Assembly (NCBI RefSeq): GCF_001913705.1 | Contig: NZ_MKQD01000032.1 | Location: forward strand, 1 to 36,054 | Direction of reading: 5' to 3' | Length of the DNA stretch: 36,054 nucleotides | Source: Thalassotalea sp. PP2-459 | GTDB taxonomy: Bacteria; Pseudomonadota; Gammaproteobacteria; Enterobacterales; Alteromonadaceae | Part shown: piece after piece, positions 5,137 to 28,749 of the stretch | Layout: each line of letters starts with the position of its first letter | Position numbering within the stretch: position 1 is the first letter of the stretch | Notes under the pieces: generated by a model | Seen by the model: only the letters and a program-made list of their open reading frames with translations | What the model was told of the DNA's origin: nothing | Database searches by the model: none | Program-made: the position numbers and the translations under genes

Positions 5137-5156
5137 ATTGTTCATTGGCTATAAGT

Positions 5157-5182: not shown

Positions 5183-5205
5183 GTTGCAGGCTAGCCTGCA
5201 TGTTC

Positions 5206-5493: not shown

Positions 5494-5511
5494 ATAGTTC
5501 AGACTCTTAAG

Positions 5512-7559: not shown

Positions 7560-7680
7560 ACTTATTCTCTTTATCTTAATTTGTCGATATTTTAACATTA
7601 TTGAGAAGAAAAACTGATTGCTATTTGTTCACTTGAGAGTCAATAATACTCATAGAATATCATGATAAGGTTATAGTGAT

Positions 7681-8430: not shown

Positions 8431-8436
8431 AGACCA

Positions 8437-9402: not shown

Positions 9403-9429
9403 CGTTTAGCACGAGCATGAACAACCACT

Positions 9430-9459
9430 AAAAAAAGCCCCACTCTCACGAGCGGGGCT
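9430..9459 (-). terminator. terminator of the candidate small RNA
   Basis: AGCCCC (9436-9441) pairs with GGGGCT (9454-9459), with an inner CTC/GAG pairing. On the minus strand it is followed by seven T (9436-9430); on the plus strand no T run follows. It therefore ends leftward transcription and not the siroheme gene. Confidence 0.8.
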
Positions 9460-9657
9460 AACAATACGTTTACGTAGTAAGAGCAATTCTACGCACGTAC
9501 TCCCGGAAAGAAGTACCCATGCAGGTACATCAACCATTAAAGACTCAAAACACATAAGTAAGGGCAAATATTTGCTTTGACTTTAATGTAAACACTTGCT
9601 GTTAATACCTTTACTCTGGCTATATGAGTAAAAATACTTAAGGGTTAACATCAAGTT
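9430..9657 (-). ncRNA. candidate Fur-controlled small RNA
   Basis: A complete minus-strand transcription unit without a convincing gene: a Fur box (9697-9715), a -35 TTGACT and -10 TAGTAT 17 bp apart, about 228 nt of transcript, and a terminator hairpin with seven U (9430-9459). The transcript could form a GTACC/GGTAC hairpin (near 9511-9526) or an alternative GTACT/AGTAC pairing just after it, plus a CGTAG/CTACG hairpin (near 9475-9495). The segment AGAATTGCTCTTAC shares ATTGCTC with the RyhB core as I remember it, too short to prove homology. By position and regulation it is a candidate RyhB-type iron-sparing RNA. Confidence 0.45.
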
Positions 9658-9663
9658 GTTTGT

Positions 9664-9692
9664 ATACTAGCAATGCATTCCCTCACAGTCAA
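9664..9692 (-). promoter_or_regulatory. sigma70 promoter of the candidate small RNA
   Basis: On the minus strand TTGACT (9687-9692) is separated by 17 bp from TAGTAT (9664-9669). It sits just downstream of the Fur box, as expected for iron repression. Confidence 0.6.
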
Positions 9693-9696
9693 TACA

Positions 9697-9715
9697 AATG
9701 AGAATTATTTTTATT
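9697..9715. promoter_or_regulatory. Fur box in intergenic region
   Basis: AATGAGAATTATTTTTATT matches 15 of 18 symmetrical positions of AATGATAAT-N-ATTATCATT. The upstream flank of any annotated gene is not near: the TonB receptor gene ends, not starts, beside it. The Fur box therefore most likely serves the minus-strand small RNA. Confidence 0.7.
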
Positions 9716-9731
9716 AACATTTTATTTATTA

Positions 9732-9762
9732 AAAAGGTTTGATAATAAATACCAAACCTTTT
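9732..9762 (-). terminator. terminator of the FecA-like receptor gene
   Basis: AAAAGGTTTG (9732-9741) pairs with CAAACCTTTT (9753-9762) around an 11-nt loop, 22 bp after the receptor stop codon. On the minus strand TT then AT-rich sequence follows, a modest T run. Confidence 0.7.
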
Positions 9763-9783
9763 CGTTATTCTGATTGACGCAAC

Positions 9784-11952
9784 TTAGAAGCTGTATTGGT
9801 AACTCGCAGATAACGTACGCGGTTTGCCAACCATTATTGAACCATGTGTACGCGACACCATATAGTCTTCATCTAACAAATTATCAACGCTAAGCTTAAC
9901 TGTCTGATTATTATCAAGCTCATAGCTCGTTGATAAATCAACCACAGTGCGACTTGCAATTTTTTCATCCGCAGGAATACCACTTTGGCCTGCATTGGTG
10001 CGCATTTCTGCTAAATAACGAATAAGCAAGTCAGTACGCCAGTTGTCTCCAACAATACCTGCGGTTAATTGCAATTGTTGTTCGGGTAAGTAAGGAAGTT
10101 CATCACCTTTTACTACACTTCCCCAAAAATCAGAATCGAAACTGTTATCAAATTCGGTATTGGTTAACGTATAAGTGATGTCGAAAGGTATAGTTAGAGA
10201 AGAAGTCACAAATTCGTACCCTGCTTTTACTTCTAAACCAGAAACAGATACTTCGCCGGCGTTGTATTGATTACCGATGTTTTCGTCATCACAATTTTGG
10301 CTTGCAGTACAATTTCCATGCATGTTTTCATAATCTGAAATAAACGCTATCGCTTCACCATTAAAGGCATTATCTTGATAACGAAGACCAAACTCGTAAT
10401 TCATGCTTTCTTCATTTTCACTATCGGTATTACCTGGTGCTGGTGGCGCAAAACCTTTTTGTACACCGCCTAGTAGTAATAACTCATTATTCACTCGATA
10501 ACTTAAAGCAAGTGACGGTAACCAAACATCAACATCATTCTTCTTATGCGCTGGCGATGCTGTACGAGCAACGTCAGATTTACCCCAATCATGACGCTCA
10601 ATCGTCATATCTTCATAGCGTAATCCTGCATTAATAATAAAGTCACCTACGGTGTATTCGTCATGAACATAAACCGCGAGTGCTTTAGCGCTGTCTATTC
10701 GATTTGAGTCAGTACCTGGAACACCTGCGCTAGTGAGTATCATTTCATAAGCACTATCTAAATTATATTTATCAACCCACTGGTAACGATCCATTTCATC
10801 TTCATGGTATCGTACGCCAAACTTTACTTGGTGATCATCAAAATCTGCATCTAAAACCGTTTGAATGCCTTGCGCTAAATAATCACGATTATTTGCTTTT
10901 ACATCTACAGAAATACTGTTATCTACATTCTCTTGCGCATCAAACGCTGCGGCAACTTCAACGCCACCACTACCTAAACTTTTACCTGCAATCTTACTCG
11001 TTTTGTACCAGTTACGGCTAAAATCGTTATGATAAGCTGAAGTACCAAGCACAAATCGTGGCGACAACTGAATGAGATGATTTAATTGTAATTGTTTATG
11101 CTCAGTAGACATGTTGTCGAGTTGAGAAGCAGAATAACGTTGGTATGGATCTGAACTGAAATCTTCCGCAGTTAAGCCGATATAAGTTTCATCTGAATCT
11201 TCATCTGCATATTTCAATTTAAACTCTAACTCTTGGTAATATGCGGCACTAGCATCTGAACGAAGTAAGACTTTCGTCATGATGTCATTTTTTACAAAAC
11301 CAGTCCCTTTATCCGTGTGATTAATGTCTTTAAAGCCGTCAGCTTGATAACGGTGAACTTCGAACACTGAAGCGATATTTTTACCTGACCCTCCAACAAA
11401 ACCATGCACTTTATTATAACCGTCTTGTCCTAGGCTCAAGCTTAACTTACCTGCAAGATCTTCTTGTGGTATCTGACGAGATAGAAGGTTAATCACACCT
11501 CCCGTAGTACGAGGACCGTACATCGCACTCGAAGTACCCTTTAACACTTCAATTGATTGCATTCGACTAGCTGTAGGAAAGTAATAAGCAGAAGGTGATG
11601 CGTAAGGTGCTGGAGCAGCTAATACACCATCTTCCATGATTGTTACTTTTTCACTTCTGTTTTGTCCCGTACCACGCATACCAATATTAGGACGAAGACC
11701 ATAGCCATCTTCCTCTAATACATAAACACCAGGAACTGATGTTAACGTTCGCATGATGTCACTGTAATCAAACTTTTCTAACTCTTTTTCAGATAATACA
11801 TGAGCGCTACCGGGTGCATTATTGACATTGTGTTCATTACCAAAAATAGTCAAATGCTCCATATCTGTCTTTTCGGTTGCTTGAACGTTTGTTGAAATAG
11901 CGACTGAAATTGCTAATGCAATACATGCTGGCTTTAAGGCTAAATGAATCAC
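9784..11952 (-). CDS. FecA-like TonB-dependent outer-membrane receptor
   Basis: A 722-residue receptor for energy-driven uptake across the outer membrane, probably of a ferric complex. It uses a GTG start with AAGGG upstream and a signal peptide ending VQA. The plug domain (about 30-160) has PNIGMRGTGQNRSEKVTIMED, then APAPYASPSAYYFP and the MYGPRTTGGVINLLSR segment. That combination fits the FecA subgroup (E. coli FecA has DG...APYGQP and GGVVNFVTR). A 22-strand barrel follows and ends in ASYQYSF, with a C-terminal Phe. A Fur box lies about 60 bp upstream. No fecR/fecI pair or ABC genes are nearby, so the ligand (citrate or a siderophore) is not settled. Confidence 0.9.
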   Translation of the reverse strand: MIHLALKPACIALAISVAISTNVQATEKTDMEHLTIFGNEHNVNNAPGSAHVLSEKELEKFDYSDIMRTLTSVPGVYVLEEDGYGLRPNIGMRGTGQNRSEKVTIMEDGVLAAPAPYASPSAYYFPTASRMQSIEVLKGTSSAMYGPRTTGGVINLLSRQIPQEDLAGKLSLSLGQDGYNKVHGFVGGSGKNIASVFEVHRYQADGFKDINHTDKGTGFVKNDIMTKVLLRSDASAAYYQELEFKLKYADEDSDETYIGLTAEDFSSDPYQRYSASQLDNMSTEHKQLQLNHLIQLSPRFVLGTSAYHNDFSRNWYKTSKIAGKSLGSGGVEVAAAFDAQENVDNSISVDVKANNRDYLAQGIQTVLDADFDDHQVKFGVRYHEDEMDRYQWVDKYNLDSAYEMILTSAGVPGTDSNRIDSAKALAVYVHDEYTVGDFIINAGLRYEDMTIERHDWGKSDVARTASPAHKKNDVDVWLPSLALSYRVNNELLLLGGVQKGFAPPAPGNTDSENEESMNYEFGLRYQDNAFNGEAIAFISDYENMHGNCTASQNCDDENIGNQYNAGEVSVSGLEVKAGYEFVTSSLTIPFDITYTLTNTEFDNSFDSDFWGSVVKGDELPYLPEQQLQLTAGIVGDNWRTDLLIRYLAEMRTNAGQSGIPADEKIASRTVVDLSTSYELDNNQTVKLSVDNLLDEDYMVSRTHGSIMVGKPRTLSASYQYSF

Positions 11953-12891: not shown

Positions 12892-14724
12892 TTAATTTAA
12901 AGCTGCTTCAGCTTGATTAACCAAGTCTGAGGCATGATTAATAACATGATAAATCAGGCTTTGTTCATTTGTTCCAGTAATGAGGTGAGCACCGGGACCT
13001 TTTGCATAAACACCAACATCTTCACCTGCATGTGTTTCCGACCCCATAGGTACTAGCGCTTCTTGATGGAAGCCAGGAGCTGTTGTGTCAATTTCAGTTA
13101 GGTTTTGACGTGTATTAACATAAGGATGCGCATAACCAGCATCAGCATCTGTTTCAGCACCTAAATCTTTAAAACCCAGGCCATTAGTATAACCTAACGT
13201 AGTATAAGGCATGCCATCGGCTGCTAACGCAGGTTCAATACTGCCGATACTGACAACTTTACCTAAAATAGGGTTACCACGTTTTGGGTAACCAGCCATG
13301 GTAAATACGTGGCTGTGATCTGCGGTTACAATAATCAAGGTTTCATCTGGATCTGTTGAATCTACCGCCGCTTGCACCGCTTCTGCAAACTCAATCGTAT
13401 CTTCAAGAGCGTTAAAAGCATTGCCCGCGTGATGACCATGATCAATACGACCAGATTCCACCATCAAAAAGTACCCTTGTTGATTGTTATCTAAAATATC
13501 AATCGCCTTTTCGGTCATTTCAGTTAAGCTCGGCTCACCAGCAATATCGTTAGCTCTATCGGCTTCATAATGCATATGTGATTCATTAAATAAGCCAAAA
13601 ACTCTTTCTGTTGTTTCAGCATTCAACGCATTGAAGCTATTACGGTCGATTACGTAATGACCTGTGGGGTAGCTTGCTTGCCATTCAGCAGTTAAGTCTC
13701 TACCATCGGTACGATCCCCTTCAATGGCACTCGAAGCATCTGTACTATTAAAAGCAGCATCCTTCGGTAGAAAGTGACGACGACCACCGCCTAACATAAC
13801 TTCCACTCCATCTACATTTAAGCCCGCAAATCTTGCCTCTAAATTAGCCTCGAAGTTTACCAGTTGTGACGCAATATCTTCACATCCTTTTGCAACCTCA
13901 TCTGCTGGCATATCAGAAACATCTTCCCAGTTGCGATCAGCTGATTTTGCATACGTTGCAGCAGGAGTGGCATGCGTAATACGAGCAGTTGAAATAACAC
14001 CTGTAGATTTGCCGGCAATCTCTGCTAACTCAAACGCTGTGACAAGTTCATTACCAGAGACTGAATCACAACTTCCTCTGCTTACACCTTCAGCAACCCC
14101 AATAACACCTACATCAGTTTTAACGCCTGACATCATCGCTGTCATCGTGCCTGCAGAGTCAGGTGTTTGAGCATCAACGTTATATGTTTTTGCATAACCT
14201 GAAAATGGAAACTTATCAAAGCTTAACTGGTGTTCTTCCCCCATTTTACCCATTTTTTGTCCTGCTAATATACGTGCAGCCGTCACAGTAGAGATCCCCA
14301 TACCATCACCAACAAAAAGAATAATATTTTTCGCTTTACCCGCAGTATTTGTGATTGCGGCATTATTAGCAACTGACTGTGTGATTTGTTCCTCGCCCGC
14401 ACTAAACCATGGGTTATTAGTCGTGGTATCAACACTCCCCCCTGCTACATTAGTAACCGACGGTGAACAAACATATTCACTTGCATCAACCTCAGCGTCA
14501 TCCAATGACCCATTTTCATTTACGTCAACGCCTGAATCAATTCTTACTCCTGAGTTGCGACATGTTTCATGACCAACGGGTACATAAGTTTGTTGTATCA
14601 AACTGTTTAATCCATTCTCTCCTGATACTCCATTAACCCCATTTGTACCGTCTTTCCCATCATCTCCGTCACAACCTACAAGTGCTATAGCAATAGATAA
14701 AGATATATATTTTAATGTTTTCAT
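12892..14724 (-). CDS. lipoprotein alkaline phosphatase with collagen-like N-terminus
   Basis: A PhoA-type phosphomonoesterase of 610 residues. A lipobox (IALVGC, Cys18) predicts membrane attachment. It is followed by a short Gly-X-Y collagen-like run (DGDDGKDGTNGVNGVSGENG, about 19-38). Next is a small Cys-containing module with an Asp/Asn-rich EF-hand-like loop (DSGVDVNENGSLDDAEVD, about 63-80). The phosphatase domain begins near 130: metal Asp in ILFVGDGMG, nucleophile Ser near 190 in QTPDSAGTMTAM, VESGRIDHGHHAG, VTADHSH and GSETHAGED, all key residues kept. It lies 11 bp after a closely similar paralogue and is evidently a tandem duplicate that gained the N-terminal modules. It should share that gene's Pho-box promoter. 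Confidence 0.93.
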   Translation of the reverse strand: MKTLKYISLSIAIALVGCDGDDGKDGTNGVNGVSGENGLNSLIQQTYVPVGHETCRNSGVRIDSGVDVNENGSLDDAEVDASEYVCSPSVTNVAGGSVDTTTNNPWFSAGEEQITQSVANNAAITNTAGKAKNIILFVGDGMGISTVTAARILAGQKMGKMGEEHQLSFDKFPFSGYAKTYNVDAQTPDSAGTMTAMMSGVKTDVGVIGVAEGVSRGSCDSVSGNELVTAFELAEIAGKSTGVISTARITHATPAATYAKSADRNWEDVSDMPADEVAKGCEDIASQLVNFEANLEARFAGLNVDGVEVMLGGGRRHFLPKDAAFNSTDASSAIEGDRTDGRDLTAEWQASYPTGHYVIDRNSFNALNAETTERVFGLFNESHMHYEADRANDIAGEPSLTEMTEKAIDILDNNQQGYFLMVESGRIDHGHHAGNAFNALEDTIEFAEAVQAAVDSTDPDETLIIVTADHSHVFTMAGYPKRGNPILGKVVSIGSIEPALAADGMPYTTLGYTNGLGFKDLGAETDADAGYAHPYVNTRQNLTEIDTTAPGFHQEALVPMGSETHAGEDVGVYAKGPGAHLITGTNEQSLIYHVINHASDLVNQAEAALN

Positions 14725-14735
14725 TTTGTTGTCCC

Positions 14736-16319
14736 CTAATTGCCAATCAAGCCGAGTGATTTATTGATAAGCTGGAATATTACACTTTGTTCGATAACGC
14801 CTTGTGCCAAGTGAGCACCTGGACCTTGCGCATGAAGTGAGATATCTTCACCGGCATGTGTTTCAGAACCCATAGGAATAGCGGCTTCTTGATGAAAGCC
14901 TGGTGTATTAGTATCAACAATGGTTAAATCTTGGCGTCCCGCAACGGCTGATTCGTTATAACTTTGGTCTGCATCTGTTTCCATTTGTAAATTACGAAAA
15001 CCAAGTCCATTGGTATAGCCTAGTGTGGTATAAGGCATACCATCGGCCGCTAATGCAGGTTCGGTAGCCCCCACATTAACCACTTTACCTAAAATAGGAT
15101 TGCCACGTTTTGGATATCCTGCAATGGTAAATACATGACTATGGTCAGCGGTGACCAGTATAAGTGTTTCTTCTGGGTTGGTAGCATCAATTGCTTTTTG
15201 CACTGCATTGGCAAATTCAATCGTATCAGTTAACGCGTTATAAGCACTACCTGCATGATGACCATGATCTATCCGACCCGACTCTACAACAAGCAAATAG
15301 CCTTTATCATTATTACTCAACACATCAATCGCTTTTTCAGTCATCTGGCTGAGGCTTGGCTCACCTGAAATATCATTTTCTCTATCAGCTTCATAGTTCA
15401 TATGCGATTCGTTAAATAAGCCAAAAACACGCTCAGTTTCCTCTGTATCAATCGCATCAAAACCCGCTTGATCGATCACAAAGGTGCCATTTGGATACAT
15501 TGTTTGCCATTCTGCCGTTAAGTCTCGATTATCAGTACGATCCCCTTCAACAGTACTTCTTGCATCAGCACTATTAAAGGCTTCATCTTTAGGTAAAAAA
15601 TGACGACGACCTCCCCCCATAACAACATCAATTCCATCGACATCAATTCCAGGAAACCTTTGCTCAAGGTTTTTCTCAAAGTTAATAAGCTGAGATGCTA
15701 TATCCTCACAACCCTGTTCAATAGCTGTATCAGGCATATCAGATACATCTTCCCAGTTGCGATCTGCAGATTTTGCATAAGCTGCTGCTGGTGTCGCGTG
15801 AGTTATACGTGCACTAGAAATAATTCCCGTAGAGAGACCTTTTATCTCAGCAATCTCTACAGCTGTAATTAATTCATTACCTTGAACACTCGCACATTCA
15901 CCACGTTCAATATTTTCATTAACACCAAGTACACCGGCATCAGTCTTAACACCTGACATCATCGCTGTCATCGTACCAGCAGAGTCAGGGGTTTGTGCAT
16001 CCGTATTATATGTTTTAACCTGTGCTGAATATGGAAACGTTTCAAAGCTCAAGTAACCTTCTTCTCCTGAGTTTCCTGCCATTTGCCCTTGTAAAATTCG
16101 TGCTGCAGTAAGCGTAGAAATACCCATGCCATCGCCGACAAATAAAATAACATTTTTCGCTTTTGTACGAGAGGCGACCTGTTGTTTATCTGAAAGTTTT
16201 GATTGCGCTTGCGTGTACCAGTTGCTTTCTTTTTGAATGCTCGGAATAACATCTGATAATGCTACTGAGCTTAAAAATAAAGACGGAATAACTGATAGTG
16301 AAACCCATCTAGTGTTCAT
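14736..16319 (-). CDS. phoA: secreted PhoA-type alkaline phosphatase
   Basis: Releases phosphate from organic monoesters outside the cytoplasm. It is 527 residues, with a cleavable-looking signal peptide (MNTRWVSLSVIPSLFLSSVA). The metal and catalytic set is complete: Asp63 in VILFVGDGMG, the nucleophile Ser113 in TPDSAGTMTAM, VESGRIDHGHHAG, VTADHSH and GSETHAGED. It has no collagen-like or lipobox part, unlike its downstream copy. RBS GAGGAAGG is strong. It is the first gene after a phased array of Pho half-sites (16466-16528) and a leader carrying a 13-bp inverted repeat. Both points predict phosphate-starvation control. Confidence 0.93.
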   Translation of the reverse strand: MNTRWVSLSVIPSLFLSSVALSDVIPSIQKESNWYTQAQSKLSDKQQVASRTKAKNVILFVGDGMGISTLTAARILQGQMAGNSGEEGYLSFETFPYSAQVKTYNTDAQTPDSAGTMTAMMSGVKTDAGVLGVNENIERGECASVQGNELITAVEIAEIKGLSTGIISSARITHATPAAAYAKSADRNWEDVSDMPDTAIEQGCEDIASQLINFEKNLEQRFPGIDVDGIDVVMGGGRRHFLPKDEAFNSADARSTVEGDRTDNRDLTAEWQTMYPNGTFVIDQAGFDAIDTEETERVFGLFNESHMNYEADRENDISGEPSLSQMTEKAIDVLSNNDKGYLLVVESGRIDHGHHAGSAYNALTDTIEFANAVQKAIDATNPEETLILVTADHSHVFTIAGYPKRGNPILGKVVNVGATEPALAADGMPYTTLGYTNGLGFRNLQMETDADQSYNESAVAGRQDLTIVDTNTPGFHQEAAIPMGSETHAGEDISLHAQGPGAHLAQGVIEQSVIFQLINKSLGLIGN

Positions 16320-18194: not shown

Positions 18195-18219
18195 AAAAAA
18201 GGGAGCAATTCATGCTCCC
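18195..18219 (-). terminator. terminator of the chelatase operon
   Basis: GGGAGCA (18201-18207) pairs with TGCTCCC (18213-18219) around a 5-nt loop; on the minus strand six T follow. It lies 22 bp after the chelatase stop codon. Confidence 0.9.
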
Positions 18220-18241
18220 TCCATCGTGTTAATTGATAACA

Positions 18242-21200
18242 TTAAGCAGCTTTAGCAAGCGATTTATTTGCTATTTCAATCGTTATTTTTTTAGCTGACC
18301 AAATATAATTATGAGAAAAACCTGCTAAGAAGATCAACAATAGAATATAAAGTGCCGTGTAATCGTCTTCTATTTGTTCTGTTTTCACCTGCTCTTCTAA
18401 CTTTTGACCACTGACTTGTTGCGCTTGTGAAGCGGCTGCTACATCCGGTTTAGCTAAGGCTTCTGCCAATGCTTGCGATAGTGGTGTTAAGCCAAAACCA
18501 GCAGCTGTTGAATCCATATATTCGTTGAATTTGTCATTGTTTGTTGCAACATCAAATTCACTCGCAATTTCAGTATAGGTTTCCACCATTTTCTTAATCG
18601 TTGCTTGGTCGGCCTGCCAATACCCTTTTCGTACTGCTTCAAGCATACGCTCTATCATTTGTGCCAAACTTTCCGGGTTGGCTTGTTCAAAGAATTCACG
18701 CATGTCCATTTGATATTTATCTTCAACATAGACGTCAAAAAATTCCTGCCATTGATCATCTCTAATCGCTTCTGGCGTCATTACTTCCCAACCCCACATA
18801 TTATTCATGCGATCAAGAATCGCCGTAGCGCCAGCATAACCTGAATCTTGCATGGCTTTTATCCAACGAGGATGAAAATATCTACTACGCATTTCTTGGT
18901 TAACAAATTCATCAAGGGTTTGGCTTTTCAATTGATCTTTTTTACGTAAATTTGAAACAAACATTTCCGGTGTTTCACCATCAAGATGCCGTACCGCTAA
19001 CCCGATACCACCAAAATATTGGAACGGATCATCATTTGTCATCAAAGCGTATAAATTAGTTGAACGTGAGAAAATCACCCCATCGGTACCTGAAAGCACC
19101 TTGTTATATAAACCTTCACCATCACCGAAGACGTCCCCGACATTTTCTGACCAACGTTTTTCATCTTTACCAAAAGCATAACCCATACGGTCTAAATACA
19201 AACCAGCCAGCTTATCATCAGTTTCCCAAGTATCAGAAGCTAATGCACTGCCAGCTAAGCCAGTACCATAGTTGCCTGTTTCATTTGAAAAGATACGTAT
19301 TGATGACAAATAATCAGCATCTGCTTCCGATTTGCCTTGTGCTAACAATTCAGTTTTTAACGCATTTGCGTGGCGATAAACAAAGTTGTTTTCTTCTTTC
19401 ATTGTTGCAATTTTATCAATCGCTTTCGCCAACCAAAGCATAACGTTAGGGAACGCATCTCGATATAACCCCGTCGCTGAAATAACGACATCAATTCGTG
19501 GGCGCTTTAATTCACTCATCGGAATAACTTCAGTACCAACAACATTACCTTGGCGATTCCACTTAGGTTTAATGCCAAGTGCATGTAGCACTTGCGCTTC
19601 AAGTGCGCCTTGATGGCGCATTGTTTCTAATGACCATAATGAAAAAGCCAATTTTTCAGGAAAACGCCCATGCTTTTCTACGTAGGCATCAATCGTTTGA
19701 TTCATGAGGGTTACACCAGCATCATACGCTTCTTTCGAAGGCACTTTCGCAGGATTAAAGCCAATAATATTTCGCCCAGTAGGTGCCGCGTCAGGGTTAC
19801 GAATAGGATCATTACCATAAGTGACTGGAATATAATTGCCTTCAAGCGCTAACAGTAAGTTTTCCGTTTCAGCAATACCTTGAAAGTTGTTCCAATATTG
19901 TTGTGCGATTGTTAAGTCTTCTGATAACTGCGTATCAAGGTTCGCCAGTTTATTTGGCGTTTTCAAATAAGTATTAAGCAACTGATAACCTTCTAGTGCA
20001 GCTAAGTTCCTCACTTTTCGATGATCAAACTGTTCAGCAATGGTTAGGTTATTATCCGCTTCATACACGCCGGCACGTTGAGTAAAGTCATCACCTAACA
20101 TCTGTAATATCGTGGTATATAGATGCGCTTCTTTCGGTAATTCACCAAAAATGTGAATACCTAAAGGTTGGCTCATTTGCGCTAATGTCGTTAAATGATC
20201 TTGTACCTTCGGCAACAGCTTTGAAAAATTTAGTTCAAACTCAGTTTGTTCAATCGACAAGTCTTTTAACATATTTAATTTTTCAGCTGCGGTAATAATT
20301 TCAGTTTGTGTATTCGCTTTTGTCTGCCCTTCTTCGAGCATCATAAAATTAGCGATTTTTTCATTAAGTTCCGCCACTTCTGCATATAATCCTGCTTTTG
20401 CAAACCCAGGCGTTAAATGACTGATCATGGTGGCACGACCACGTCGTTTTGCTTGCATCGCTTCACCAACATTGTCGATAATATAAGGATAAAAAACCGG
20501 TAAATTTCCAATGGCAAGGTTTGGCGCATCATAGACTGAAAGGCCACGCTCTTTACCTGTTAACCATTCTTGTGAGCCATGCGTACCTAAATGAATAAAT
20601 GCATCGGCACCAAAGGTTTTACGTGCGAATAGGTATATAGCTAGATAACTATGATTAATCGGTGTTTTTGTACTGTGATATAAAGATGCATGTTCTTGAG
20701 CATTTTCACCTCTAACACCTTGCGGCAACACAATCATATTGCCTAAATTCATTCTGGGAATAACAAACGCTTTTGATTGTTCGCCATTGATCGTGGTATT
20801 GCGTAACATTCCGCTATCTTCAGGTTTCCCCCACCGTTCAACAATCGGAGCAGTAACTTTTTCAGGCAGATTATTAAACCACGATAAATACGTTGATAAT
20901 GGCATATATTCGGCTAAATTTTGTGCAACAAGTGCTTCTGCATCTTCCCCACGATAATACGGGCGTAACAGTTTTCCCGCAGATTCAATTAGATAATCAC
21001 TGTCTTTAGGTGTTACTTGATAGCCATTTTTCTTCATCGCTTTGGCTATATTGGCGATCGACGATGGAACATCTAAAAAGGCTGCGCCAATGTTTTTCTC
21101 ACCGGGAGGGTAATTCCAAATAAAGGTAGCGACCTTTTTCTCGTTATTGTTAGTAATTGCTAGATTTGCATGATTATAAGCTCGCTCAACCAACGCATTT

Positions 21201-22225
21201 AATTGATAGTCTATGACGACCTTTGCACCTTTTTCGTTTGCCGCGATAATAGTTGGATCTGTACTACCAGTATCTTCTGGCATCACCAAAAAGAAAGGTG
21301 TTAATGAAGGAGAAATACCAGCATGATCTTCAGAAAATGCGCTCTCATCACCTTCCGTATAATTTAGTGCATGCAATACCGGTACGCCTACTTTTTCAAA
21401 CTCTGCTCGGCGCTTTTCAACATAATGTAATGACCGGTAATTGATCAGTAAGTTAACACGCTGCTCACCGTTATCGTTAAGCAGCAAGTCCGTGTAGTTT
21501 AATGCCTCATCATTTCCTTCAAAAAAGTAACCAAATGCTTTTGCGCCTTTAGCTTCTAGTCCTTTAATTAGAGCATCTACGATTTGTTGCTGTTCATAAT
21601 CAACAACACTTCTATGCATACCAATGGCAATAACCGGTTGATGATCCGTTGGTGCTAAGAATTGATAAAATGCCGTTTCATCATTGGTAACTTGCGGCGT
21701 TAGGGCATAATGGTATAAACCAACATTAGGTACACGCTGTGGTGCTTCTGCCTCAACAGATGATAACGCTAACAATGAACCAGACAAATACAACATCAAA
21801 TTTCGATAATTATCTCGACCTGCATTATTGTAATAACTACCAATGCTTTGCTGCTGTTTTTCAGTAAGTCCCTGATTGGTTTTCGAATTAGTTAAATCCC
21901 CTAATGAAATAACCGGAACGTTTGGAAACTCCACAAGATAAGCATGATATTTAGCAAACATAAATTTTGATAATGCGGGATTGATACCGTCTAGCATAAT
22001 TAACGCTGCCTTTTGCCAATCTGCTTTAATTTCTTGTTCTGATTTACCTTTCGTTGAGTAATTGACCAATTCAAAAGGTTGATCTTTTGCTAGTGACTGC
22101 AATAAATCACCTTTTGGTTTTGATGCATGTGAAGACATCATCAACAACACTTTAGGTTTATCATTTGCATATAACGGCGTGACAATAAATAAAGTGAGCA
22201 ACACGACTAAGATTATTTTTTTCAT
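18242..22225 (-). CDS. exported, membrane-anchored CobN-family chelatase (HmuS-like)
   Basis: A 1327-residue homologue of CobN / Mg-chelatase H, which insert metal into tetrapyrroles. Family marks include FIHLGTHGSQEWLTGK (near 543-558), VVISATGLYRDAFPN, SNETGNYGTGLAG and MTNDDPFQYFGGIGLAVRHL. Unlike cytoplasmic CobN it opens with a signal peptide (MKKIILVVLLTLFIVTPLYA) and ends with one membrane helix (about 1291-1309) followed by Lys-rich sequence. This implies a large periplasmic body held in the inner membrane. No CobS/CobT-type ATPase is present. It overlaps the DUF2149 gene by 4 bp. With an ExbB-like gene upstream and a divergent haem-type receptor, it resembles Bacteroidetes HmuS, linked to removing iron from haem. 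Cobalt insertion remains an alternative. Confidence 0.88.
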   Translation of the reverse strand: MKKIILVVLLTLFIVTPLYANDKPKVLLMMSSHASKPKGDLLQSLAKDQPFELVNYSTKGKSEQEIKADWQKAALIMLDGINPALSKFMFAKYHAYLVEFPNVPVISLGDLTNSKTNQGLTEKQQQSIGSYYNNAGRDNYRNLMLYLSGSLLALSSVEAEAPQRVPNVGLYHYALTPQVTNDETAFYQFLAPTDHQPVIAIGMHRSVVDYEQQQIVDALIKGLEAKGAKAFGYFFEGNDEALNYTDLLLNDNGEQRVNLLINYRSLHYVEKRRAEFEKVGVPVLHALNYTEGDESAFSEDHAGISPSLTPFFLVMPEDTGSTDPTIIAANEKGAKVVIDYQLNALVERAYNHANLAITNNNEKKVATFIWNYPPGEKNIGAAFLDVPSSIANIAKAMKKNGYQVTPKDSDYLIESAGKLLRPYYRGEDAEALVAQNLAEYMPLSTYLSWFNNLPEKVTAPIVERWGKPEDSGMLRNTTINGEQSKAFVIPRMNLGNMIVLPQGVRGENAQEHASLYHSTKTPINHSYLAIYLFARKTFGADAFIHLGTHGSQEWLTGKERGLSVYDAPNLAIGNLPVFYPYIIDNVGEAMQAKRRGRATMISHLTPGFAKAGLYAEVAELNEKIANFMMLEEGQTKANTQTEIITAAEKLNMLKDLSIEQTEFELNFSKLLPKVQDHLTTLAQMSQPLGIHIFGELPKEAHLYTTILQMLGDDFTQRAGVYEADNNLTIAEQFDHRKVRNLAALEGYQLLNTYLKTPNKLANLDTQLSEDLTIAQQYWNNFQGIAETENLLLALEGNYIPVTYGNDPIRNPDAAPTGRNIIGFNPAKVPSKEAYDAGVTLMNQTIDAYVEKHGRFPEKLAFSLWSLETMRHQGALEAQVLHALGIKPKWNRQGNVVGTEVIPMSELKRPRIDVVISATGLYRDAFPNVMLWLAKAIDKIATMKEENNFVYRHANALKTELLAQGKSEADADYLSSIRIFSNETGNYGTGLAGSALASDTWETDDKLAGLYLDRMGYAFGKDEKRWSENVGDVFGDGEGLYNKVLSGTDGVIFSRSTNLYALMTNDDPFQYFGGIGLAVRHLDGETPEMFVSNLRKKDQLKSQTLDEFVNQEMRSRYFHPRWIKAMQDSGYAGATAILDRMNNMWGWEVMTPEAIRDDQWQEFFDVYVEDKYQMDMREFFEQANPESLAQMIERMLEAVRKGYWQADQATIKKMVETYTEIASEFDVATNNDKFNEYMDSTAAGFGLTPLSQALAEALAKPDVAAASQAQQVSGQKLEEQVKTEQIEDDYTALYILLLIFLAGFSHNYIWSAKKITIEIANKSLAKAA

Positions 22226-22566
22226 TCTTGATCACTCTTTGTCTTATTATTTTTTTCGTCGCCTTCTGGCACATACACGAAGCTGCCATCTGCCATTTTA
22301 TAAGCAACACCAGCTCGCATACCTTCACCTGAGCCAATATCACCAGTAGATTTATATTGTTTAATTTCTTTGCCTTTTTTCACGATCATTTCCATGTTTG
22401 GTTTCCCAGCATTTTTAATCACCGTTACATCATCAGCAGAAAAGACACTTAATGGGTTTTGCGCTAATGCAATTAATAACGCAGCAATAATCACTAAAAA
22501 TACATCAACGAGATTTACCGCACTAACAATTGGGTTTAATTCTTCATCGTCATCTAAAAAGCGCAT
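22222..22566 (-). CDS. DUF2149 family membrane protein
   Basis: A 114-residue protein with a charged, cytoplasmic N-terminus (MRFLDDDEELNPIVSAVNLV). One membrane helix (about 20-40) and a periplasmic Lys/Gly-rich domain follow. The layout is that of ExbD/TolR, and DUF2149 proteins are known neighbours of CobN-like and ExbB-like genes. The N-terminal helix has an Asp (VDVFLV) at the membrane edge, where ExbD keeps its proton-path Asp. I infer a partner for the upstream ExbB-like protein, together passing proton-motive energy to the chelatase. The genes are packed (5-bp gap upstream, 4-bp overlap downstream), so translation is probably coupled. Confidence 0.85.
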   Translation of the reverse strand: MRFLDDDEELNPIVSAVNLVDVFLVIIAALLIALAQNPLSVFSADDVTVIKNAGKPNMEMIVKKGKEIKQYKSTGDIGSGEGMRAGVAYKMADGSFVYVPEGDEKNNKTKSDQE

Positions 22567-22571
22567 GATAC

Positions 22572-23099
22572 TTACCTCAGTTTACGAACATTGATAAGCT
22601 CATCAGCACACCAACGTTTTTTCACAGAAGCAGGCCAAAAGGTTAACGTAGAAATAACTAAACCCCAAATAACTGCTGCGAAAGCGATAATTAGATTTTC
22701 ACTAATGCCTTGAATATTGCCATCGGCTAATGCTTGTAATGCAGGCCCCATTGGGATCATTGTCGCGATAAGCCCTAGCATTGGTGCTATTCTGGTAACA
22801 ATACGTAAGGTTTCCAGTTGCTTTAACGCAACGACTTCTAACTCATCATCACTGGCAAACGGATTTCTAATAAAATAATTATGAACAGGGAAACCTGGAA
22901 GGGTTGTCATTGAACCATCGTTATTGTGTATCTGTTTTACATAATTCAGTTTATGTTGTCGGCGTTGTAACCACTGAGAAGCAAATTTCCCTAATGCATA
23001 AATGGCATATACCACTAACAAGCAAATAACAATAATAACTGGCGTCATCAGTAACTCTGAAACTTGCGCCATGGTGATTTCTAATAATTGGATGTTCAC
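22572..23099 (-). CDS. MotA/TolQ/ExbB-family proton channel protein
   Basis: A 175-residue inner-membrane protein with three likely membrane helices (about 16-38, 100-122, 138-160). The ExbB/TolQ channel region is IAPMLGLIATMIPMGPALQAL, then the third helix IIAFAAVIWGLVISTLTFWP. ExbB proteins use proton-motive force with an ExbD-type partner, here the DUF2149 protein downstream. It uses a GTG start at 23099 with GGGGGAT upstream; an internal ATG nine codons on is an alternative. It is the first gene of the leftward operon, behind a promoter abutting a Fur box. Its position beside a chelatase, not a TonB gene, is the HmuTUV-like arrangement. Confidence 0.88.
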   Translation of the reverse strand: MNIQLLEITMAQVSELLMTPVIIVICLLVVYAIYALGKFASQWLQRRQHKLNYVKQIHNNDGSMTTLPGFPVHNYFIRNPFASDDELEVVALKQLETLRIVTRIAPMLGLIATMIPMGPALQALADGNIQGISENLIIAFAAVIWGLVISTLTFWPASVKKRWCADELINVRKLR

Positions 23100-23131
23100 T
23101 AAATTTTATCCCCCTAGGATTTAATGAAAAC

Positions 23132-23160
23132 ATTGTACATAACCCCAAAACCACAATCAA
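23132..23160 (-). promoter_or_regulatory. leftward promoter of the chelatase operon
   Basis: On the minus strand TTGATT (23155-23160), a 17-bp spacer and TACAAT (23132-23137) form a good sigma70 promoter. Its -35 touches the Fur box. Confidence 0.7.
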
Positions 23161-23178
23161 ATAATAATTATTCTCATT
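23160..23178. promoter_or_regulatory. Fur box shared by divergent haem receptor and chelatase operon
   Basis: AATAATAATTATTCTCATT matches 16 of 18 symmetrical positions of the Fur consensus. It lies between the -35 regions of two back-to-back promoters, so one Fur dimer set could repress both. Confidence 0.85.
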
Positions 23179-23182
23179 TGTG

Positions 23183-23209
23183 TTTACTTTAGCGTTTTGA
23201 TCCTATAGA
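23183..23209 (+). promoter_or_regulatory. rightward promoter of the haem-type receptor
   Basis: TTTACT (23183-23188) and TATAGA (23204-23209) are 15 bp apart, a short spacer; the -10 is convincing, the -35 less so. A start near 23216 leaves a leader of about 157 nt. Confidence 0.5.
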
Positions 23210-23239
23210 GTAAAAAACGATTGATTAGAAAGCCCAAGA

Positions 23240-23331
23240 AAATACCGGCCCGTAGTGGTTACTTGTTTTGACTTGCACAGAACATCCCCCCGTTCTCGCC
23301 AACCTAAAACAAGTATGCGGGTGCGGTATTT
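23240..23331 (+). ncRNA. structured leader RNA, riboswitch-like, unknown class
   Basis: Nested pairings in the receptor leader: AAATACCG (23240-23247) with CGGTATTT (23324-23331); CCCG (23249-23252) with CGGG (23318-23321); a 10-bp TACTTGTTTT (23260-23269) with AAAACAAGTA (23306-23315); and AGAAC (23279-23283) with GTTCT (23292-23296), closing a C-rich loop. The single strands between helices are G/C-rich (TAGTGGT, TGCACA, TCGCCAACC), as in ligand-binding RNAs. It ends about 30 bp before the RBS AGGA (23361-23364) and no T run follows, so it would act on translation or RNA stability. No B12-, TPP- or FMN-riboswitch signature is present. Confidence 0.5.
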
Positions 23332-23373
23332 ACATCATTGAACACATATTTTTAAGTAATAGGATTCATTGCA

Positions 23374-25566
23374 ATGTATTTGCATCAACAACCGTATAAA
23401 CGAACATTATTATCAACTGCTTTATTATTGGCAGTTTCTTCAACGCCTGCCTTTGCCTATGAAACGCCTGATTCAGATTTAGCCAATGACTTAGAAGTTA
23501 TCGTGATCAGTGGTTCCAAAACTGAAAAAGCGCTTAAAGACGTTGCTGGGAGTATTTCGGTTGTTACTTCAGAAGATATTGAGAAACAAGTCGTGACTGA
23601 CTTTAGTCAGTTATTCCAATATGACCCTAGTGTACAAGTAAGCGGCTCAGCAGGTAGTGCTCAGAATGTTATTGTTCGAGGCATGGGTGGTGACCGTGTT
23701 CTGATGATTAAAGATGGCATGCGTATGAACGAAGGGTACGGCGCAAATGGGTTAAATGATATTGTAGGTCGTGGTTTTATTGATACAGACACATTAAAAC
23801 AAGTAGAGGTTGCTAAAGGTGCAGCTTCTTCACTCTATGGCTCAGATGCGTTAGGCGGTATTGTTGTTTTTACCACCAAAGATGCTTCTGATTATTTAGA
23901 AAAAGGTGAAGCAATCGCAGGTAAAGTAAAGCTTGGTTACAATGAACTTGGCAAACAAACCAACCTCGGCGGCACCTTAGCCTTTAAAACCGGCGAAGTA
24001 GAACACTTATTAAATGCCAGTGCTCGTGATGGACAAGAAGTACAAAACTTCGACGGTACTAAACCTGATCTTGATATTGAATCAACGAGTTACCTATACA
24101 AAGCAAAACTAAATTTAAATAAAACTGACTTTCTGTCATTCTCTGCAGACATATGGCAACAAGACGTTATTGGCAATCACGCTCTCGGGCTTCTTGAATA
24201 CTTTCGTACTCTTGATGGCTACAATGTCGTTGCCGAAAAAAATACTAGCAAGCAAGATACCCAAGCATACAAACTTCGTTATTATAGTGAAACCCCTACC
24301 GCACTTTATGATTTACTTAATATCGCTATCTATACCAACAATTCAGAGCAAGAAGATATTGAATACGGTCAATTAGATATCAACGCCAATTTTGGTTTCC
24401 CGGTCGTTGAAATTCGCGATATGTGGAACACTTCACTGTATAAACAAAAAACCAAAGGGTTATTGTCTAACGCAAGCTTAACGCTGAATGATACTCATAC
24501 GATTGGTTATGGTCTTGATATAGAGCATTCAGAGTCATTGCGTACAGAGGTAAAACTTTACGAAGTAGAAGGCGTAGCCAAACCAGGTTATCCACAAGAG
24601 AATGAAAAATTCCCAACGACGGAAGTAAAACGAACCGGATTATTTATCAACGATGAAATAACGTTATTAAATAATCGCTTAACAATCACACCTGGAGTGC
24701 GATTTGATACCTATAAGATGGAAGCAAATAACGCGAAAAATGACGATGGCGTTGATTATAAATCCTATGATGAAGATCATGTTTCATTAAACCTTGGTGC
24801 ATTATATAAGTTTAGTGATGATATTGCGGTATTTGCCCAATATGGTCAGGGCTTTAAAGTACCTGCTTATGATCTTGCTTATATTAACCATGATAATTCT
24901 ATTTATGGCTATAAAGTGGTACCCAGTAATGATTTATCCCCCGAAAAAAGTGATACCTATGAACTTGGTTTACGTGGCACAGTTAACGATTTAACCTTTA
25001 GCGGTGCGATTTTTCACAGTAAATATGACGACTTTTTAGCCACTGAGTTAATTGATATCGAAAGTGTTATAAATCCATATACAGGCCAAGAATCATCCGT
25101 ATTAGTGTATCAATATCAAAACATAGATGCGGTCACCATCAAAGGTATTGAAGCGTCGATACACTATGATATCAATCACCATTTATCCATGTTCGCAAAT
25201 GCCGCCTATCAAGATGGTAAAGACGACGAAACAGGTGACTACCTAACGAGCATCAGCCCGCTATCAGGAAGTGCAGGGTTTAATATGCAGTATGGTGACT
25301 TTTCTTCCGACATTATTGTTAATTGGGCGAAGCGTATGACAAAAGTTAACAGTGGTAATGCTGAAATTGCCGGTCACGTGACTATCGATATGCTAGGGCA
25401 TTACGCAATTACAGATGATTTACGTGTTAACGTGGCAATTTCGAACCTATTCGATAAAGAATACGTACGTTATTTAAATGGTGCAGGACACGCAAGCGGT
25501 AATACCTTAAACAATGTTACTGAACCAGGTAGAAGTGTTTCAGCCGCGATTCATTACCAGTTTTAG
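23374..25566 (+). CDS. TonB-dependent receptor of the haem/haemoglobin group
   Basis: A 730-residue outer-membrane receptor with a signal peptide ending AFA. The TonB-box region near 38-46 is EVIVISG; the plug follows with NVIVRGMGGDRVLMIKDGMR, then SLYGSDALGGIVVFTTKD. In the barrel, QGFKVPAYDLAYINHDN is followed by VPSNDLSPEKSDTYELG. That corresponds to the FRAP...NP(D/N)L motif pair of haem receptors (HemR, HutA, HmuR), with a His between them as expected for haem binding. The barrel ends SAAIHYQF. It is divergent from the CobN-like operon and shares its Fur box. The leader holds a structured RNA element, and a terminator follows. Haem or haemoglobin is the likely cargo, but another tetrapyrrole is possible. 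Confidence 0.9.
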   Translation: MYLHQQPYKRTLLSTALLLAVSSTPAFAYETPDSDLANDLEVIVISGSKTEKALKDVAGSISVVTSEDIEKQVVTDFSQLFQYDPSVQVSGSAGSAQNVIVRGMGGDRVLMIKDGMRMNEGYGANGLNDIVGRGFIDTDTLKQVEVAKGAASSLYGSDALGGIVVFTTKDASDYLEKGEAIAGKVKLGYNELGKQTNLGGTLAFKTGEVEHLLNASARDGQEVQNFDGTKPDLDIESTSYLYKAKLNLNKTDFLSFSADIWQQDVIGNHALGLLEYFRTLDGYNVVAEKNTSKQDTQAYKLRYYSETPTALYDLLNIAIYTNNSEQEDIEYGQLDINANFGFPVVEIRDMWNTSLYKQKTKGLLSNASLTLNDTHTIGYGLDIEHSESLRTEVKLYEVEGVAKPGYPQENEKFPTTEVKRTGLFINDEITLLNNRLTITPGVRFDTYKMEANNAKNDDGVDYKSYDEDHVSLNLGALYKFSDDIAVFAQYGQGFKVPAYDLAYINHDNSIYGYKVVPSNDLSPEKSDTYELGLRGTVNDLTFSGAIFHSKYDDFLATELIDIESVINPYTGQESSVLVYQYQNIDAVTIKGIEASIHYDINHHLSMFANAAYQDGKDDETGDYLTSISPLSGSAGFNMQYGDFSSDIIVNWAKRMTKVNSGNAEIAGHVTIDMLGHYAITDDLRVNVAISNLFDKEYVRYLNGAGHASGNTLNNVTEPGRSVSAAIHYQF

Positions 25567-25592: not shown

Positions 25593-25618
25593 AAAAGCTC
25601 CTTTCATAGGAGCTTTTT
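25593..25618 (+). terminator. terminator of the haem-type receptor
   Basis: AAAAGCTCCT (25593-25602) pairs with AGGAGCTTTT (25608-25617) around TTCAT, followed by T. It lies 26 bp after the stop codon. Confidence 0.9.
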
Positions 25619-27614: not shown

Positions 27615-28115
27615 ATGGGCAGTGATTTTTATCAATTATCGATACTTCCATATTCAGGGATCATAATCAAAATTTGTCGGGCGTATACCAATAGCCAAGA
27701 AGACTTTGAAGATTATTATCAAGAAGTATGCCTGCAAATTTGGCGTAGTAAAGATAATTTTAATCAGCAATCAAAGTGGTCAACGTGGATATACCGCATT
27801 TCTTTGAATGTTTGTCTAACGCATTTGAAAAAGAGTAAGTCAGGTATAACGGATATATCGTCCGATGCGTTACCCGAAGAAGTGATTGACGACAGTAAAG
27901 CCTTTATCAATGACGATATAAACCAACTTTACAATGCAATAAAGCACTTGTCAGAAATAGACCGAGCGTTGATTTTGCTTTATTTGGAAGAAAAAACCTA
28001 TGCGGAGATTGCCGAAATTACCGGTACAAATACGAATAATATTGGCGTCAGAATCAACCGAGTAAAAGAAAGATTGCACAGACACTTGAATCAACAAGGA
28101 GTAACAAATGAATAG
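27615..28115 (+). CDS. ECF-type RNA polymerase sigma factor
   Basis: A 166-residue sigma70-family protein with region 2 and region 4 only. Region 2 holds the polymerase-binding and -10 recognition helices (EDFEDYYQEVCLQIWRSKDN, then STWIYRISLNVCLTHL). Region 4 ends in a helix-turn-helix (LYLEEKTYAEIAEITGTNTN, then NIGVRINRVKERL). It overlaps the next gene by 8 bp, the classic arrangement for a sigma factor and its membrane anti-sigma. Its target promoters cannot be told from sequence. ECF factors often activate their own promoter, but I see no paired motif in 27433-27614. Confidence 0.9.
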   Translation: MGSDFYQLSILPYSGIIIKICRAYTNSQEDFEDYYQEVCLQIWRSKDNFNQQSKWSTWIYRISLNVCLTHLKKSKSGITDISSDALPEEVIDDSKAFINDDINQLYNAIKHLSEIDRALILLYLEEKTYAEIAEITGTNTNNIGVRINRVKERLHRHLNQQGVTNE

Positions 28116-28749
28116 ATCCATTGAAGCCATGTGGAAAGAAGGTTTTATCAATGAGCCTAATCTTGCCGCACCGAAAATTAATGCCTTATATAACCTAAAG
28201 TCTCAAAATATTGTAGATAAATTACAAAGCATGTTCGCACTCAATATTAAAGCGCTAATCATAGGTAGTATCATCATGATGATTATGATGTCACTTATAG
28301 GCGCGCCGTTTTTAGGTTTATATATTTGCTGTTTACTCATACCGCTGGTGATCATTGCCAAAAAAGAGTTAGCCAAAAGCACATCCTTATCGAAAGGCCA
28401 ATCGAGTTATGATTATTTACTCAATTTTGATCACTGGCTAAAAAGCTCGATTAACACCTATGCCAAGTATTACCGCTTGTTTTACCCTTTATTTTTTATT
28501 GGCATGGTGACTCAAGCGCTCGTTAGCAAAGCGGGTGGGAAAATTATCAGTTTAATCATGCAAAAGTTTCCAACAGATATAGTCCTGTTAGGCATTCCAT
28601 ATTATTTAATCATCATAATAACAATGCTATTGCTATTGGTTATAAAGTACTCTGATGCATTGTACCGTTTAGATCTCAATATCGTTTACGGACGTCAATT
28701 CAAGAAATTAGACGAATTGATTGCTGATATGAAAACACTGAAAAGCTAA
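28108..28749 (+). CDS. membrane protein, probable partner of the sigma factor
   Basis: A 213-residue protein with a soluble N-terminus (MNRSIEAMWKEGFINEPNLA) and about four membrane helices (near 47-63, 66-82, 120-140, 155-178). A cytoplasmic tail rich in Asp/Lys follows. RBS AAGGAG stands before the ATG and the start lies inside the sigma gene, so translation is coupled. No ZAS (His-Cys-Cys) anti-sigma motif is visible. An anti-sigma function is inferred from position alone. Confidence 0.75.
   Translation: MNRSIEAMWKEGFINEPNLAAPKINALYNLKSQNIVDKLQSMFALNIKALIIGSIIMMIMMSLIGAPFLGLYICCLLIPLVIIAKKELAKSTSLSKGQSSYDYLLNFDHWLKSSINTYAKYYRLFYPLFFIGMVTQALVSKAGGKIISLIMQKFPTDIVLLGIPYYLIIIITMLLLLVIKYSDALYRLDLNIVYGRQFKKLDELIADMKTLKS

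Follow-up and report, generated by a model that had tools for sequence, protein, structure and literature searches.

Background

The hmuYRSTUV operons of the Bacteroidota are induced by iron shortage and their fifth and sixth genes encode HmuU and HmuV, an ExbB-like and a DUF2149 protein, respectively (PMC10434189). The CobN-like protein of these operons, HmuS, is described as a haem de-chelatase that needs NADH in vitro, and His538 of the B. thetaiotaomicron enzyme is reported to be essential to the de-chelation (PMC12583661). We report the analysis of a locus of the same general kind in a stretch of 36,054 nucleotides from Thalassotalea sp. PP2-459 (contig NZ_MKQD01000032.1, assembly GCF_001913705.1), which at its full length we refer to as the window. 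Open reading frames (ORFs) and profile searches place there a tight operon of exbB-like, DUF2149 and CobN-like genes, all on the minus strand, divergent from the gene of a haem-type TonB-dependent receptor.

In print, HmuU and HmuV have been assigned to TonB-driven haem import, HmuV being called diagnostic of haem transport (PMC10100974), and the ExbB-like and DUF2149 proteins are likewise assigned to receptor transport in PMC12583661; for the P. gingivalis HmuS, its authors state that they cannot exclude an effect of HmuT, HmuU or HmuV on the activity (PMC13227078). Comparable gene sets are described from other bacteria. PA1922-1925 of P. aeruginosa, listed as a receptor, a CobN-like, an ExbD-annotated and a DUF2149 protein, are zinc-controlled (PMC4542158, PMC8531726, PMC13083405, PMC9431628) and respond to a lack of zinc with strong induction (PMC4542158, PMC9431628); a cobN-exbB-exbD-tonB cluster of Geobacter lovleyi has been read as serving transport (PMC3403914); and B. 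fragilis has BtuS1/2 (PMC6460266) as well as riboswitch-bearing hmu-like operons, reported along with HmuV matches in Methanomicrobia (PMC10100974).

The locus in the window is genuine, recurs in other genomes and represents a variant of the Hmu/BtuS kind that has been little described. On balance we favour its reading as a Fur-controlled module for the acquisition of haem iron, in which the ExbB-DUF2149 pair would be the proton-fed partner of the chelatase. In the open-licence PMC literature we found no account of the archaeal gene trios described below, of the pair as a motor of chelatases, of HmuY operons of our type B outside the Bacteroidota or of the Fur-controlled arrangement of the window.

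Results and discussion

The operon, its receptor and its control

The order of the genes, their families and their packing, all called from the letters alone in the original prediction, are borne out by the ORFs and by the Pfam and NCBIfam models. The chelatase gene overlaps that of the DUF2149 protein by 4 nt, the latter is separated from exbB by 5 nt, and a divergent gap of 274 bp lies between exbB and the receptor gene (Table 1). The Pfam scores are 1012 bits for the chelatase (PF02514), 101 bits for the DUF2149 protein (PF09919) and 32 bits, over a cut-off of 22.9, for the ExbB-like protein (PF01618); the receptor matches as Plug plus beta-barrel. The signal peptide and C-terminal helix foreseen for the chelatase correspond to hydrophobic segments at both of its ends, the N-terminus reading MKKIILVVLLTLFIVTPLYA. 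Its gene is the sole PF02514 gene of its genome (4.08 Mb, 85 contigs), in which the exbB-like gene of the window is joined by six further MotA/ExbB matches and in which no match to the CobS model was found (CobT was not searched).

Table 1. Features of the locus, with positions counted from the first letter of the window
Feature	Position	Strand	Remarks
Terminator-like hairpin directly 3' of the chelatase gene	18198..18222	-	count of such sites in the scan not above shuffles
Exported, membrane-tethered CobN-like class I chelatase subunit	18242..22225	-	1327 aa; signal-peptide-like N-terminus
Chelatase C-terminal hydrophobic helix	about 18302-18361	-	from residue 1289
Codon of Asp1066 in TNDDPFQYFGG	19028..19030	-	at the place of HmuS His1209; Asp there in bacterial CobN rows too
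Codon of His549 in HLGTHG	20579..20581	-	counterpart of HmuS His538 by alignment
DUF2149 protein (HmuV-type)	22222..22566	-	114 aa; one membrane helix, invariant Asp21, ExbD-like layout
MotA/TolQ/ExbB-like protein (HmuU-type)	22572..23099	-	175 aa; GTG start
Fur-box-like site AATAATAATTATTCTCATT	23160..23178		17/19 to Fur consensus; 60 nt before exbB, 195 nt before receptor gene
TonB-dependent receptor, haem/haemoglobin subfamily	23374..25566	+	730 aa; conserved His506
Terminator-like hairpin directly 3' of the receptor gene	25593..25617	+	count of such sites in the scan not above shuffles

The receptor passes the NCBIfam cut-offs of the haem models TIGR01786 (389.9 against 323.75) and TIGR01785 (370.8 against 316.85), and that of locus L114 likewise lies above the haem-receptor cut-offs. 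The original prediction had called it a receptor of the FRAP/NPDL type; the haem models and the histidine between the two boxes, which all 13 receptors compared retain (the split receptor of L117 being left out), agree with this, but the boxes themselves are degenerate and read FKVP and SNDL, respectively.

The score of the Fur-box-like site is reached once in the 36-kb window, where scores are letters matched to Fur and Zur consensus sequences. A site of this kind, matching 14 to 18 of 19 letters, is present in the divergent region of all 14 loci of the window's type, and in 13 it is the only place of its score in its own stretch. When the single bases of each region were shuffled 300 times, the Fur score was never reached in 11 loci and was reached once in L114, four times in L122 and seven times in L121; since the window has near-copies in L105 and L107, the 14 loci are not 14 independent cases. 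Zur-like scores are poor across these regions, the best in the window being 10 of 16, reached at 138 places, and Zur control of the window was rejected for want of a good site. Cobalamin control was also rejected, as no Rfam family reaches its gathering score within the window.

The chelatase and its relatives

Two trees, made by quick search with supports from the Shimodaira-Hasegawa-like approximate likelihood ratio test (SH-aLRT) only, place the chelatase among exported relatives. In the first (59 rows, 10 near-duplicates left out) the 45 rows of exported types are split from canonical CobN and BchH at a support of 98, and within them a support of 100 is given to each of three groups: the HmuS clade, type C, and types A, B and D together (the types are those defined below). 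In the second, which includes archaea (69 rows, 12 more near-duplicates left out), 52 exported rows, bacterial and archaeal, stand apart from 17 rows of plain CobN/BchH at 99; the archaeal rows near the window's group are long and their exact placement is unsure. A grouping with the cytoplasmic cobalt chelatases, which had been named as fatal to the proposal, is thus not seen. The HmuS clade consists of L106, L110 and the row of the B. thetaiotaomicron enzyme, which is partial, and the chelatase of the window lies outside it. Hydrophobic N- and C-terminal helices are found, at the cut-off used, in 46 of 54 exported bacterial types and in none of 14 cytoplasmic rows (12 distinct sequences).

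A sequence search of the PDB favours HmuS (9d26, 428 bits) over CobN (7c6o, 362 bits), and the chelatase is far under the cut-offs of eight NCBIfam models for CobN or BchH. Residue names and motif definitions for HmuS are taken from PMC12583661. The column of His538 shows no change among 57 bacterial rows, nor in any row of the residue comparison given below; its motif, HFG(T/A)HG, has L for F as second letter in the window, and L106 deviates as well (HYGTHG). Because the histidine of HxGxHG is superfamily-wide, it does not discriminate HmuS from its relatives. The motif LSLDHxxEFMGG, which holds His1209 and Glu1212, is absent from the window, where the sequence reads MTNDDPFQYFGG. H254, H1209, E1212 and W1202 are each kept in three of three HmuS-clade rows, with His254, the neck haem ligand of HmuS, present in B. 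thetaiotaomicron, L106 and L110; Gln1198 is not a mark of HmuS, as it is not conserved in L106 and L110. The methionine-rich insertion of domain IV was not seen in the chelatase (at most 9 Met per 100 residues, in the C-terminal part) by a crude count, which shows none in the HmuS-clade proteins L106 and L110 either (no more than 7 per 100).

From its clade position and these residues, an ortholog of HmuS was rejected. A canonical cobalt chelatase was rejected on the export features, the clade and the lack of a CobS match in the genome, with the name of an NCBI model and an Asp-Asp site pointing the other way (see below). A further histidine, two positions past that of the lost His254 (INYRSLH / NFRNIH), is common to the clade-A and clade-B rows compared, clade A being that of the window, and an MFAK-type methionine is shared in the head of clade A; these are possible replacement haem ligands.

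Spread of the locus and its types

Surveys were made of the groups of kin around the window genome, to which the terms class, family and genus refer here. In the class survey (274 genomes) PF02514 is present in 35 genomes and DUF2149 in 18; in the family survey (295 genomes) the numbers are 61 and 59. The co-occurrence of CobN-like and DUF2149 proteins that had been proposed as a check is complete, in that all DUF2149 genomes (18 of 18 and 59 of 59) also have PF02514, and the two genomes of the family survey with PF02514 only are a fragmentary draft (G348) and one whose gene contains a stop (G445). From these surveys we assembled 58 DUF2149 loci, namely the window, loci from 17 other genomes of the class survey, and 40 loci from the family survey, where 31 of the remaining 58 DUF2149 genomes were covered. 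An ExbB gene and a chelatase frame lie in the same stretch in 56 of the 58, three of these having short or split frames only (L087, L088, L138); in the remaining two, L108 and L111, the chelatase is elsewhere in the genome.

Type A, that of the window, has exbB-DUF2149-cobN and a divergent haem-type receptor. It comprises 14 loci, grouped by this four-gene arrangement itself, which recurs in varying neighbourhoods. In type B the order is receptor, hmuY, exbB, DUF2149, cobN. A single gene family, with members in 12 loci, occupies the place between receptor and exbB, and all 12 match HmuY (PF14064), the haem-binding protein of the Bacteroidota, above the cut-off. L092, which was grouped with type B, has no HmuY and its receptor is above the haem cut-offs. 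The chelatases of L126 and L137 fall within clade A even though they stand in HmuY-bearing operons of another arrangement, and they thereby link the type of the window itself with HmuY.

The chelatases of type C are long and carry HLGRHS, and a cobalamin riboswitch was found in five of the seven stretches searched (the set holds 21 type-C stretches); the receptor of L095 is BtuB-like at 512 bits, under the cut-off of 599.7. Types A, B, D and HmuS gave no cobalamin riboswitch in 21 other stretches, seven further clade-A stretches among them. Type D (L089, L143, L144) reads receptor-cobN-exbB-DUF2149, the order of the published PA1922-1925 gene list; its loci group with clades A and B by the tree, and CirA is the best model, under its cut-off, for the receptors of L089 and L143. 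L090 and L091 were filed under type D with differing gene orders.

The HmuS-clade proteins L106 and L110 carry ALSLDHVYEFMGG; L106 lies in the window's genus (genome G371) and L110 in the same family. The L106 receptor is of the haem type and above the cut-off. Its operon (1698-10262, LSLDHVYEFMGG) has a Zur-like site, TTGTTATGATATAACAT, which matches 14 of 16 letters and whose start lies 48 nt upstream of the receptor gene, and a second site of nearly equal score occurs at another place of the stretch; going by the first site, the operon may possibly be zinc-controlled. G371 also holds L107, a locus of the window's type with a Fur-like site.

Several loci depart from a single intact chelatase. 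In L137 (10483-19051) tandem chelatases of branches A and B follow a single ExbB-DUF2149 pair and an hmuY gene, an arrangement that would suit one partner serving two substrates or two steps, and two chelatase genes in a row are also found in G357 (contig C25, 33303-41027). Copies that appear broken include the chelatases of L138 (10828-15282, two ORFs), L087 (11102-12346, shortened) and G445 (contig C70, a frame with a stop), and the receptor of L117 (11394-13583, two ORFs).

The ExbB-DUF2149 pair in bacteria and archaea

Pro12, Asn18 and the membrane residue Asp21 of the DUF2149 protein are conserved without exception, both among 42 bacterial sequences and in a set of 27 from bacteria and archaea. 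The common ground with ExbD consists of the layout and the membrane aspartate only. The model of the DUF2149 protein is of low confidence (mean predicted local distance difference test score, pLDDT, of 61) and hence no fold search was made from it.

The archaeal set comprised 30 McrA-bearing genomes (from 30 of 80 McrA loci), with DUF2149 in 22, PF02514 in 26 and both in 19. Matches to PF09919, PF02514 and PF01618 are likewise present in the genome of Methanosarcina acetivorans, which served as a control. Twenty stretches were taken from the 35 rows of DUF2149 matches and 19 of them contained a DUF2149 ORF. ExbB adjoins DUF2149 in all 19, a CobN-like gene is present in the same stretch in nine, and no TonB-dependent receptor was found in any of the 20. 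The holders of the trio are Methanosarcina sp. KYL-1, Methanimicrococcus blatticola, Methanolobus bombayensis, Methanolobus vulcani, Methanococcoides vulcani, Methanobrevibacter curvatus, a metagenome-assembled genome (MAG) of Methanobrevibacter millerae and two more MAGs. Seven of the nine have the order exbB-DUF2149-cobN, cobN coming first in L254 and L258. Among the 11 CobN-like proteins of these nine stretches, a hydrophobic segment is found at the N-terminus in all 11 and at the C-terminus in nine, the other two being cut by the end of the stretch, against neither segment in any of seven plain archaeal CobN proteins. The archaeal trio is that of the window, with signal peptide and C-terminal helix; it differs in having no receptor found with it and in the length of the chelatase, complete ones being about 1515-2114 aa.

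Methanosarcina, Methanobrevibacter and their kin have no outer membrane. The occurrence of the same trio in such methanogens argues that the pair serves the enzyme and not the receptor, and makes it more likely that ExbB-DUF2149 is the partner of the exported chelatase. By analogy with the ExbB family the pair would be driven by protons, and the drive of the chelatase by proton-motive force (PMF) in place of an ATPase, as the original prediction had it, would on the strength of the archaeal trios be more likely than before.

CobN-like genes in tandem, two or three at a time, stand near one ExbB-DUF2149 pair in G576 (contig C8, 214467-227647) and G572 (contig C213, 1306-16199), and also in L250 and L264; the frames of these methanogen tandems reach about 2100 aa. 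In L253 and L261, both of Methanobrevibacter, the pair lies near a protein of six to seven transmembrane segments and an ATP-binding cassette (ABC) importer, whose binding protein in L261 is Peripla_BP_2. This neighbourhood is possibly a second use of the pair.

Comparison with described systems

Like the hmuYRSTUV operons of the Bacteroidota, the window has an exported, tethered CobN-like protein, an ExbB-like and a DUF2149 protein, a haem-type receptor, signs of iron control, the counterpart of the catalytic His538 and, in its sister operons, HmuY. It was in this sense that the locus had been called an Hmu-like system, and the parallel genes, receptor type, Fur-like sites and HmuY neighbours uphold the name. 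The chelatase is, however, not a local HmuS: it lies outside the HmuS clade and is without H254, H1209 and E1212, its operon has neither an adjoining hmuY nor a fourth membrane gene, its receptor is divergent, and the genus has a separate HmuS-clade protein. With PA1922-PA1925 the window shares the protein kinds and a TonB-dependent receptor, as judged from the published gene lists (PMC4542158, PMC9431628), and differs in its Fur-like site, as opposed to Zur and zinc, and in gene order, that of PA1922-PA1925 being receptor-cobN-exb-DUF2149.

With the cytoplasmic chelatases CobNST and ChlIDH the window shares the fold of the H/N subunit and the invariant histidine of HxGxHG. Those enzymes have no signal peptide and C-terminal helix and fall on the other side of the main branch of the tree. 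They have partners of the AAA+ kind (ATPases associated with diverse cellular activities), where the window has ExbB-DUF2149.

Proposed function and alternatives

In the reading that we favour, the receptor would, under iron shortage, bring haem, or a metalloporphyrin closely akin to it, into the periplasm, where the exported and tethered CobN-like protein would bind it in the central cleft and act on the central metal. The most likely action would be the removal of iron, by way of His549 and an Asp-Asp pair at the place where HmuS has Asp-His, and the ExbB-like and DUF2149 proteins would form a proton-fed partner in the inner membrane, in the role that AAA+ ATPase subunits have for cytoplasmic CobN and ChlH. 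We infer haem as the substrate, removal as opposed to insertion, and a proton-driven action on the chelatase. That the substrate is probably haem follows from the receptor type, the Fur-like sites and the HmuY neighbours, and not from the active site, which is CobN-like.

A number of observations weigh against this reading. To begin with the active site, in all 11 clade-A rows His1209 is replaced by Asp, Glu1212 by Gln and Trp1202 by Tyr, and His254 by Ser in nine, the window included, and by Ala in two. In bacterial CobN rows position 1209 is Asp in five of five and position 1212 is Gln in four of five, so that the second metal site of clade A is of the CobN form, Asp-Asp-x-x-Gln, and the comparison leaves the window with a haem-type setting around a CobN-type second metal site. 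The chelatase also narrowly passes the NCBIfam model NF004644 'CobN' (1258 against 1248 bits), and a Foldseek search with its predicted model (mean pLDDT 89.6) puts CobN 7c6o level with HmuS 9d26, with template modelling (TM) scores of 0.82 and 0.80, respectively. As to the haem supply, a Fur-like site of at least 0.79 lies close before the receptor in only eight of 13 type-B loci (L115, L124, L126, L128, L136, L137, L139 and L092); the site of L132 reaches 0.74, and L134, L085, L086 and L087 have none at the receptor among their three best. The type-B receptors of L085 and L132 have TIGR01785 as best match, under its cut-off. In Bacteroides the iron freed by HmuS passes through FeoAB, and no FeoB above the cut-off was found in the window's own genome; ChuX/HutX and haem oxygenase gave none above cut-off there either (HutZ/HugZ, IsdG and HemS were not searched). 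We know of no experiment on a clade-A member.

Other points in this group concern the pair itself. Profile comparison lends no support to a homology of DUF2149 with ExbD, the hhalign probability being 2.4% over 13 columns against only four ExbD/TolR rows. Ten of the 19 archaeal pairs have no CobN-like gene in their stretch (that of L262, at least, ends just past DUF2149) and lie near other genes, among them those of an S-layer protein, DUF2162 or the binding protein of an ABC importer, or, as in L262, at a contig end; three of the 22 archaeal genomes with DUF2149 (G573, G580, G586) have no PF02514 match. From these pairs and genomes, ExbB-DUF2149 may have other uses.

The alternative that survives best, though we think it unlikely, is that ExbB-DUF2149 energises the outer-membrane receptor via TonB and that the chelatase works without a drive. 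This is how HmuU and HmuV of Bacteroides (PMC10100974, PMC12583661) and the exbD-annotated gene of P. aeruginosa (PMC4542158) are read in the published accounts, and the receptor does adjoin the operon in the window and in 13 other loci of the same arrangement. It has to contend, however, with the archaeal pairs and exported CobN-like proteins of organisms without an outer membrane, in stretches without a receptor. Moreover, the bacterial locus L092 has a set of TonB, ExbB (both by Pfam) and ExbD (by eye) adjoining its ExbB-DUF2149-CobN trio, and the pair stays with CobN over several receptor types and gene orders.

A second alternative would have the chelatase insert or exchange the metal of an imported tetrapyrrole in the periplasm, in the salvage of porphyrins or corrinoids and not in the supply of iron. 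The CobN form of the second metal site, the first place of 7c6o by fold and the existence of a branch with cobalamin riboswitches all fit, yet neither the window nor the seven further clade-A stretches have such a riboswitch, and the Fur-like site in 14 of 14 loci, the HmuY genes of sister operons and the missing CobS match make salvage improbable. That the locus would instead be for zinc or cobalt, in the manner of PA1922-1925 under Zur, seems very improbable in view of the haem-subfamily receptor of the window, where type-D L089 and L143 match CirA best, and of its many poor Zur-like matches against a single good Fur-like one, even if PA1922-1925 are composed of the same protein kinds and induced by zinc shortage (PMC4542158, PMC9431628), type D with its PA1922-1925 order joins clades A and B, and the HmuS-clade locus L106 has a Zur-like site.

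Neighbouring genes in the window

On the minus strand, two adjoining ORFs of 610 and 527 aa (12892-16319) were named alkaline-phosphatase-like by eye from the sequence, the first with a lipoprotein-like start and a Gly-rich stretch. A second TonB-dependent receptor of 722 aa (9784-11952, minus strand) is under the cut-offs of all NCBIfam receptor models that it matched. On the plus strand (27615-28749) a sigma-factor-like ORF of 166 aa overlaps a membrane ORF of 213 aa; by eye, the two are perhaps an extracytoplasmic function (ECF) sigma/anti-sigma pair.

Conclusion

The presence of DUF2149 in operons with cobalamin riboswitches, in PA1922-1925 and in archaea argues that HmuV is not diagnostic of haem transport, contrary to what is inferred in PMC10100974. 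It is to our minds an evenly balanced matter whether ExbB-DUF2149 is, more generally, a PMF motor for exported class I chelatases of bacteria and archaea that replaces CobST and ChlID outside the cytoplasm and is independent of the outer-membrane setting known from its first description, one module being tuned to haem iron (the window, HmuS), zinc (PA1922-1925), corrinoids (the riboswitch type) or another tetrapyrrole (methanogens). As to how HmuS-type enzymes are powered, the archaeal trios speak for an assignment of the ExbB-like and DUF2149 proteins to the chelatase. If this is true, these proteins would make up, outside the cytoplasm, a proton-driven counterpart of the ATP-driven chelatases.

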